A DNA stretch of 64,000 nucleotides, from contig NZ_ABCM01000011.1 in NCBI RefSeq assembly GCF_000170795.1, forward strand, positions 62,001 through 126,000. The letters are read 5' to 3'. This document shows, piece after piece, positions 52,261-62,993 of this stretch (position 1 is its first letter; every line of letters starts with the position of its first letter). The notes beneath the pieces are model-generated. The model saw only the letters and a list, made by a program, of their open reading frames with translations, did not search any database and was not told where the DNA came from. The position numbers were made by a program, and so were the translations under genes. The stretch is from Pedobacter sp. BAL39. Lineage in GTDB: Bacteria; Bacteroidota; Bacteroidia; Sphingobacteriales; Sphingobacteriaceae.

Positions 52261-52330
52261 TTTGAGTGCCTGATTGCGATGCCCTCCTATAATTATCCCT
52301 ATAATTGCATGGTTAGACGACCAGCAATAA

Positions 52331-52356
52331 AGCCTCCTCCCCGGAGGCTTTTTTAT
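52331..52356 (+). terminator. orphan intrinsic terminator
   Basis: A GC-rich 7-bp stem (52331-52337 with 52343-52349, 5-nt loop) is followed by T-rich sequence. No full gene ends close upstream: the permease stop is ~250 bp away. It could end a long 3' UTR or a small RNA. Confidence 0.65.
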
Positions 52357-52396
52357 TTTTCATCACATCGGAATTGTTTTAGCTATAAATTGAGGA

Positions 52397-52523
52397 GGTT
52401 GACAAGGTATACCTCGCCCTTTAAGGCACATTCAACAGGCTTTTTTATCGCTTTTATATATCCATATACCTTACACGGGATATCTGAACACCTTGTGAGT
52501 ACCTTGTCAACCCCTTGTGAATA
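52397..52523. repeat. 13-bp inverted repeat and three 11-bp iterons
   Basis: GGTTGACAAGGTA (52397-52409) and its exact reverse complement TACCTTGTCAACC (52500-52512) are 103 bp apart. The downstream arm is embedded in three tandem 11-bp units (CCTTGTGAGTA, CCTTGTCAACC, CCTTGTGAATA; 52491-52523). An 11-bp period is close to one helical turn, the arrangement of multi-site protein-binding DNA. No matching regulator is adjacent. Mobile-element ends were also considered. Confidence 0.6.
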
Positions 52524-52737
52524 GCGAACAAAACCCGAACAATTACCGATTAAAAACCGAACTCCGCCTTCGCGACCCAACTCCAGGTTTACCTGACAAA
52601 GTGCCGGGTGCTAAAATGATCTGAGCTCATTTATGAAATTGTCGTATCAGCTGTATAATATTTCAGAATCTTTGGAACTTTGTATTCACCGAGCACGATA
52701 ATTGTAAGCAAGTTTAACTAAAACAAACCATCATTCT

Positions 52738-61613: not shown

Positions 61614-62993
61614 ATGAAAAAAAGCATATACCTACTCAGCACCATTCTTCTCATTGCCATCTGCAGCAGTTCCTGCAAAAAGCTGATCACGGCGCCTCTG
61701 CCCAACAACCTCCTGGTTTCGTCTACGGTATTCCTCGACTCTGCCACGGCACAATCCACCATCAACGGTTTGTATAGCAAGTTTTACAATGGATTTATGG
61801 GCGGTAGCGGTTATTACAGTTACAACATTACGCTGCATCCCGCAAGGCTGGCAGATGAACTTTATGCCGTGGCAAGCACTGCTGATGCATTCAACAACAA
61901 CAGTTTGCTGTCGACCAATACGGATGTTGAAGCCCTTTGGAACGACTCTTATTCGGTCATCTATGCAGCGAACAGCATCATGAAGGGCGCACAAAATTCA
62001 ACGGCAATCTCTTCGCGATTAAAACAACAGCTCAGCAGCGAAGCGAAGTTCATCCGTGCAGCCTGTTATTTTTACCTCGTCAATTATTTCGGCGATGTAC
62101 CACTCGTCACCACGACCGATGTGTCGGTGAGCAGTACGATGCCACGAACACCTGCCGCTGAGGTCTACAGTCAGATCGTGGCAGACCTTTCGGAAGGCAG
62201 CAGCACGCTTGCGACAGACTATTCCTGGTCACAGGGCAGTCGCACCCGGGCAAACAAATGGGCCGCAGAAGCAATGCTGGCCAGGGTATACTTATATATG
62301 GGCAAATGGCTGGAAGCAGAAGCCGCAGCAACCAAGGTCATCACTCAGGACGGAATGTATGGTGTAATTACTGAGGACCTCCAACAGGTATTCCTGAAAG
62401 ACAGCAGGGAAACGGTACTTGCTTTTTATACGAATTTCAATGGATACCCTTATCAGACCGTTCATACGCAACTGACGGAAAACATACTGCCCAACTTTGC
62501 CCTGCGCAAGACATTGCTCGATGCATTTGAGCCTGGGGACATCAGGCCATCGAAATGGATCAGCAGCATCAGCCACAACGGACTGAGCTACAGTTACCCT
62601 TCGAAATATAAAAGTTCCGGCAATAGTGAGGAGTACCAGATCTTCATGCGTTTGTCGGAGCTGATGCTGATCCGTGCCGAAGCCAGGGCCTACCAAAGCA
62701 ATTTCAGCGGGGCGAAGCTGGACCTGGATGTGATTCGTGGGAAATCCGGACTTGGCGCCACAACCGCAAATGACCTGGCTTCATTTAAAACCGCACTGGA
62801 ACATGAACGTCAGACAGAGCTTTTTCTGGAATGGGGAGACCGTTGGCTGAACCTGAAAAGGACTGCTCGTGCAGATGCGGTACTGAAGCCGCTGAAACAG
62901 GCTTCATGGCAACCGACAGATGTGCTGTATCCGATTCCGCTTCAGGCAACCAGCACCAACGGAAACCTGAAACAAAATCCGGGATACAACTAG
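61614..62993 (+). CDS. SusD/RagB-family nutrient-binding lipoprotein
   Basis: The 459-residue product has a lipoprotein signal ending AICSSSC (Cys about residue 21) and TPR-rich SusD structure: an early WNDSYSVIYAANSIM, LRAACYFYLVNYFGDVP, MRLSELMLIRAEARA and a C-terminal ERQTELFLEWGDRWLNLKRT plus YPIPLQATSTNGNLKQNPGY. It caps the SusC barrel at the cell surface and binds substrate. It starts 11 bp after susC, so the two form one unit. Relative to classical SusD (~550 aa) it is somewhat short. Confidence 0.95.
   Translation: MKKSIYLLSTILLIAICSSSCKKLITAPLPNNLLVSSTVFLDSATAQSTINGLYSKFYNGFMGGSGYYSYNITLHPARLADELYAVASTADAFNNNSLLSTNTDVEALWNDSYSVIYAANSIMKGAQNSTAISSRLKQQLSSEAKFIRAACYFYLVNYFGDVPLVTTTDVSVSSTMPRTPAAEVYSQIVADLSEGSSTLATDYSWSQGSRTRANKWAAEAMLARVYLYMGKWLEAEAAATKVITQDGMYGVITEDLQQVFLKDSRETVLAFYTNFNGYPYQTVHTQLTENILPNFALRKTLLDAFEPGDIRPSKWISSISHNGLSYSYPSKYKSSGNSEEYQIFMRLSELMLIRAEARAYQSNFSGAKLDLDVIRGKSGLGATTANDLASFKTALEHERQTELFLEWGDRWLNLKRTARADAVLKPLKQASWQPTDVLYPIPLQATSTNGNLKQNPGYN

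Follow-up and report, generated by a model that had tools for sequence, protein, structure and literature searches.

The stretch of DNA analysed here (the window) comprises 64,000 nucleotides of contig NZ_ABCM01000011.1 of Pedobacter sp. BAL39, positions 62,001 to 126,000. It contains an intergenic element, the parts of which are listed in Table 1. The initial annotation had described three contiguous 11-bp units together with an exact 13-bp inverted arm 103 bp upstream, and both descriptions were confirmed, the units at exactly the coordinates reported. The two arms lie 103 bp apart from start to start, with 90 bp in between. The annotated extent, 52397-52523, takes in most of the element, but the alignment reaches approximately 52564. 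Since the units of a second type that follow the first three continue in register, a single 11-bp period runs across about seven units. Directly upstream of the element there is a terminator-like hairpin (52326-52357).

Table 1. Features of the window element (positions in the window) and the HTH_17 gene of the C47 locus
Feature	Position	Strand	Remarks
Family A element, window copy	52397-52564	+	168 bp, intergenic; 13 own-genome copies and alignment A1
Left inverted arm GGTTGACAAGGTA	52397-52409	+	exact reverse complement of 52500-52512
Inner hairpin, 5' side ATATCC	52458-52463	+	ATAGCC in five other copies; in 5 of 13 copies, one of six pairs has both partners changed
Inner hairpin, 3' side GGATAT	52478-52483	+	
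Three 11-bp iterons, type CCTTGTSARYM	52491-52523	+	four in copy L012
Iteron units CCTTGTGAGTA, CCTTGTCAACC, CCTTGTGAATA	52491-52501, 52502-52512, 52513-52523		contiguous
Right inverted arm TACCTTGTCAACC	52500-52512	+	last two bases of first unit included in arm
Second unit type, 11-bp period continued: GCGAACAAAAC CCGAACAATTA CCGATTAAAAA CCGAACT	52524-52563	+	
HTH_17 gene of C47 locus	L068 566-841		

Searches of the whole genome (47 contigs, 5.79 Mb) revealed that the element, which we call family A, is not confined to the window. BLAST located it at 13 places, namely the window and 12 others with 78-97% identity. A covariance model likewise found 13 places, as did the pattern of the right-hand array, for which the reversed control pattern gave none. 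The genome search proposed in the initial annotation has therefore yielded 12 copies besides that in the window, and these are stronger evidence that the repeats are real than the shuffle statistics of the window copy. The best lag-11 score within 52380-52570 (21 of 33) was equalled in four of 20,000 mononucleotide shuffles, and the whole window has three perfect inverted pairs of 13 bp whose starts are separated by 13-130 bp, the pair of the element included. Averaged over the 13 copies, family A scores 34.6 of 55 at lag 11 and 33.9 at lag 22, while the remaining lags from 5 to 21 give 14.6-20.6. The arm pair is exact in five of the 13 copies, counting that in the window; in each of the other eight it departs from this at one or two positions, through G-T pairs or mismatches. 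Only copy L012 has a changed number of units, with one extra.

Family A is dispersed outside genes. No ORF of more than 90 amino acids overlaps any of the 13 copies, although short ORFs (58-90 amino acids) extend into four of them. A gene within the element was considered and rejected: no frame is open in all 13 copies, and the best, on the - strand, is open in three. The adjacent genes differ from place to place; they are convergent around six copies, point in the same direction around five and diverge around one, and one copy lies at the start of a contig. Because the whole 168-bp element is repeated among different neighbours at 13 places, it is not the end of something larger, as the alternative of a small mobile-element end would have had it. 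The remark that nothing adjacent explains the repeats holds locally, but an explanation comes from elsewhere in the genome (see below). Two pairs of copies (L003 with L011, and L007 with L013) have approximately 15-25 bp of left flank in common, which raises the possibility that other repeats enclose or extend the element.

An assembly or chance effect, to be recognized by the lack of other copies and of conservation in relatives, had also been contemplated. Copies exist, yet the sequence is hardly present in relatives. BLAST found no match to the element in 35 congeners; one genome belonging to the same class gave a single match of 36 bases (E 1.4e-4). With the covariance model, weak matches were obtained in four of 144 congeners; the letters of these four cousins differ, yet tandem units of approximately 11 bp and inverted arms are present. 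The plasmid and phage collections contained no match to the element.

A search of the genome for tandem CCTTGTSAAYM, followed by BLAST with one of the places found, revealed a second family, B. It occupies about nine places by BLAST, most of them matched on both strands, and has the same iteron as family A, CCTTGTCAACC; the peaks at lags 11 and 22 are present in both families. Both have inverted arms. Family A has the arm pair and moderate folding z values, whereas family B forms a strong hairpin, with mean z values of -6.5 and -6.0 on the two strands (nine loci). One family B copy on contig C47 (L068, C47 448800-452000) is located just upstream of a gene for a protein of the DUF6266 family (PF19781, 1.2e-25), which has no transposase match in Pfam. 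The order at this locus is the B array, the DUF6266 gene, an HTH_17 gene (PF12728, 2.8e-06) and a second DUF6266 gene. This position of a B copy led us to examine the regions upstream of DUF6266 genes more widely.

The genome contains 17 DUF6266 matches, which we read as 16 genes, one being split in two pieces. Upstream stretches of 320 bp were collected in three sets: 16 from this genome; 29 from relatives (one locus each, out of 33 relatives that have the family); and 28 from a phylum-wide and viral sample, which covers two IMG/VR contigs and 20 further genomes, some of them represented by two loci, one locus having been dropped for its short upstream region. A strong array was defined as a score of at least 22 of 33 at lag 10 or 11. 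Strong arrays are present in 31 of the 73 stretches (7/16, 12/29 and 12/28, respectively) and absent at this cut-off from 42. Among control regions they were found in none of 44 downstream regions (own genome and relatives), three of 48 regions upstream of neighbouring genes and none of 199 window tiles; Mann-Whitney tests of DUF6266 upstream stretches against controls gave p values of 1.1e-5 to 1.9e-13. In the own-genome set the highest scores are at lag 11 (19.75) and lag 22 (18.31), followed by lag 24 (16.5); in the relatives, lags 10, 11, 20 and 22 score 17.1-18.6, followed by lag 30 (15.97). The lag profile of 53 control regions of the window is flat (14-15.3). In 10 of 16 own, 23 of 29 relatives' and 18 of 28 phylum-wide stretches, lag 10 or 11 scores above twelve other lags. 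The cut-off was also reached at lag 8 or 9 in 3/28 of the phylum set, and at lag 13 or 14 in 1/28 of that set and 1/16 of the own set, so there is some noise from low-complexity sequence. Moreover, the array of locus L129 is not an independent case, since it was found via the iteron.

The centre of the array lies 90-160 bp ahead of the start codon in 23 of 33 strong arrays. The sequence of the unit varies from one DUF6266 locus to another, so much that one common binder acting by direct readout is unlikely. Independently of the family B search, the pattern GCGAACAARACCCGAACAANNNNCGA had a single match in the collection of named genomes, Flavobacterium record CP096136.1, where a DUF6266 gene (1.9e-47) is preceded, at a distance of approximately 250 bp, by four GCGAACAARACCCGAACAANNNNCGA units, with shorter repeats in between; this case stands outside the counts above, and its DUF6266 protein has no match in the plasmid and phage collections. 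Scanning IMG/VR with a single DUF6266 protein found nothing, and alignment scans found two contigs. The iteron pattern was also seen, with two units each, in the viral contigs L181 and L182. A hairpin is not supported as a general feature of these stretches, because as a rule they fold little more strongly than controls (mean z on the + strand -1.15, -0.65 and -0.75, compared with -0.59). What they have in common is thus direct repetition at the helical period, strong hairpins being limited to family B and a small number of other cases. No mention of DUF6266 or PF19781 was found in the literature searched, and we recognized no earlier description of such arrays in the accessible portions of the literature surveyed.

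Five of the 16 own upstream stretches, those of L129 (family B), L123, L124, L121 and L132, are copied at places away from DUF6266 loci, as revealed by a joined query of all 16 stretches that had no control of its own; the L132 stretch itself has no strong array. At the 12 such solo loci examined, no ORF of at least 80 amino acids overlaps the copy and the flanks have no DUF6266 match; two further matches lie on C31 and C21. Family A fits the same pattern, as a solo family for which no parent gene was found: DUF6266 genes often have upstream arrays of the same design, one with the window iteron itself, but the fetched flanks (up to 1.5 kb) of the 13 family A copies contain no match to DUF6266. 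Nor do these flanks contain an HTH_17-like match, and none to DUF6266 was found in the flanks of the four congener cousins. The element families seem to cluster in the genome: on C46 (68931-70732), a family A copy and an L121-type stretch lie on either side of one gene, and on C38 (51366-52031), L123-type and B copies are at most 0.7 kb apart. On C12 (10852-12996; L236 and L008), B and A copies are approximately 2 kb apart with two genes in between, of which one has a sub-threshold match to a HigB-like toxin (PF05015, 1.9e-4) and the other matches HTH_3 weakly.

Genes that recur beside DUF6266 provide a candidate binder. HTH_17-like genes are found near 17 of 74 DUF6266 loci (258 kb including overlaps, with L122 and L129 representing the same place) and were undetected at 57; the three seeds of this search came from DUF6266 loci, one of them lying in two overlapping fetched loci, so that their own matches were guaranteed. 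In 28 control sources (145 kb of own-genome DNA only, the window and copy L009 overlapping and the B locus linked to DUF6266 excluded), no match reached E 1e-3; the best had E 0.29. Array scores of at least 20 occur at 14 of 17 loci with the HTH gene versus 30 of 56 without (Fisher p 0.03, one-sided), and array strength is higher where the gene is present (Mann-Whitney p 0.008, one-sided). Other DNA-binding proteins offer precedents. In the available text of PMC5859096, BldC is described as forming cooperative multimers head-to-tail on direct repeats; on one promoter a single DNA turn separates its molecules, and at whiI its consensus takes the form of a 9-bp repeat (available parts of PMC5859096 and PMC11963761). 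RdfS covers approximately 10 bp per molecule (PMC11963761, in part), and CarH tetramers bind tandem 11-bp repeats (PMC9304148, in part).

Given the HTH_17 genes near DUF6266, the stronger arrays there and these precedents, we favour a winged-HTH filament: by analogy with BldC and CarH, a small winged-HTH protein most likely binds the array head-to-tail, one protomer per DNA turn. The element has the direct-repeat spacing of about one turn that marks CarH/BldC-type sites, which are bound by MerR-like winged-HTH proteins. The cooperative protein-binding array proposed in the initial annotation is therefore favoured, from the kept one-turn spacing over about seven units, the varying unit number and the same iteron in family B, and it is a prediction from sequence. 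The arrays described here differ from the sites of BldC, RdfS and CarH in that they are dispersed genome-wide, with locus-specific units and a binder that is a candidate, and in that families A and B carry inverted arms as well.

Other genes accompany DUF6266. A cluster of CHAP/endolysin-like genes follows it in 16 of 72 loci; one member tested matched a PHROG lysis family (8.8e-19) and, below its cut-off, Pfam CHAP (9.4e-05). Membrane or lipoprotein-like genes form a further cluster at eight loci. L068, L122, L126 and their relatives, with DUF6266 and an endolysin-like gene and in eight cases also the membrane/lipoprotein-like gene, have the look of small lysis modules. A second recurrent protein cluster lies by DUF6266 at L151, L154, L163, L165, L202 and L207, the member at L151 having no Pfam match. 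The structure model of DUF6266 from a single sequence is poor (mean pLDDT 43); that from three rows (mean pLDDT 48) is usable in its C-terminal half alone, which has a likeness to an FN3 domain, and the sequence matches Neogenin FN3 at E 0.02. DUF6266 itself was also considered as the binder, with nothing speaking for or against it.

Some properties of the copies could be read differently. If family A encoded a structured RNA on the + strand, the repeats would be a by-product of its stem. The consensus structure does pair 94.7% of cells, compared with 39.1% at most in slid structures, and folding z is -2.7 on the + strand versus -1.8 on the - strand; in the long stem, one-sided changes that keep pairing are G-U on the + strand. 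However, the RNAalifold covariation term is near zero and copy L011 has two broken stem pairs. Two pairs are changed on both sides, against none or one in slid structures, the inner hairpin pair being U-A in seven copies, G-C in five and broken in one; yet the number of covarying pairs was equalled by 482 of 500 shuffles, and the more favourable measures (eight cells with two-sided changes, equalled by two of 500 shuffles, and a covariation score of 0.111, equalled by none) are, as the tool cautions, inflated by relatedness. Furthermore, the CCGAACAA units, which lie downstream of the stem, rank among the most conserved stretches, and Rfam contains no family above its gathering threshold, the three sub-threshold matches all falling on the neighbouring terminator-like hairpin. 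A structured RNA is accordingly improbable. Less probable again, and in our estimate very unlikely, is that an integrase-driven element left the units behind as arm-type or excisionase sites. The HTH_17 fold is of the excisionase type, and the IMG/VR contig L183 has, at 300-335, a tandem run of three CCCGAACAAAA-like units of which the third is incomplete; a tRNA-Thr flanks the run on one side and a Phage_integrase gene (PF00589, 1.8e-22) on the other, and the unit is the one seen in the right half of the element in the window. Against this, no integrase was recognized among the eight most recurrent DUF6266 neighbour clusters, six of which were covered by a family search, and the tRNA scan bears on a sole family A copy, L007, with a tRNA-Val nearby. 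ParR-parC centromeres and plasmid iterons are also arrays of approximately 11-bp direct repeats, but here there are many copies over the contigs of one genome.

A REPIN- or MITE-like element, in which the hairpin would be the functional unit and a trans-acting transposase would recognize the iterons and copy single-stranded hairpins to other sites, is rather unlikely, although there are likenesses: short, dispersed intergenic elements with inverted arms, several families per genome, and strong folding of family B on both strands. REPs have far more copies per family than the 2-13 found here. The present elements also differ in design, at approximately 130-170 bp and built on direct iterons of 10 or 11 bp, and DUF6266 upstream stretches generally fold little better than controls, notwithstanding z values below -3 in four of the 16 own stretches. 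No target-site duplication, for which the initial annotation suggested looking, was found: flank words of 4-9 bp in common are no commoner than in random pairings, with boundaries uncertain by some bases. When the site was compared with congeners, the query aligned at its permease end alone (71-79% identity among the matches listed); as the element and the next gene did not, the site is not comparable there. A MITE as such is not supported, there being no target-site duplication and no terminal inverted repeat at the right end, where the arm is internal by approximately 50 bp. The presence of one copy by a gene and of others alone recalls REPIN/RAYT systems, as described in the available part of PMC3116915, but the linked gene here is DUF6266, and since Pfam reveals no transposase domain in that gene and the element is built differently, we do not file the element under REPINs. 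Its mode of spread may resemble theirs, while the DNA site would work like those of BldC and CarH.

We give about an even chance to the reading that the feature is a copy of a dispersed, non-coding and non-autonomous intergenic element, the working part of which is a predicted array of protein sites one turn (11 bp) apart, bound by a winged-HTH protein. Binding and mobility are what we infer; under this reading, a DUF6266 module would encode a small winged-HTH protein, similar in kind to HTH_17, BldC and CarH, which would polymerize head-to-tail on the array, one protomer per iteron, and would control the module at the B copy on C47. The family A copies and the other B copies would be solo sites, spread by some copying mechanism, which may titrate or recruit the same protein. 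A wider picture is possible, though on balance doubtful: DUF6266 modules throughout the phylum, some with HTH_17 and an endolysin-like gene, might be governed by fast-changing one-turn arrays, the iteron at each locus matched to its own filament protein, and arrays might break free and proliferate as solo sites, decoys or satellites, one of them being that in the window.

Single operators, attachment sites and centromeres are the main places from which helical-turn arrays are known. The arrays described here form a class with a common period and differing sequence, tied to one uncharacterized gene family across many genomes of a phylum, and copies of them are also spread through intergenic space. 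If the interpretation is true, they would constitute a novel type of dispersed repeat, the defining property of which is helical phase and not sequence, and which sequence-based repeat finders could miss. They would also offer a handle on the function of DUF6266, and possibly a set of protein-site pairs of differing specificity.
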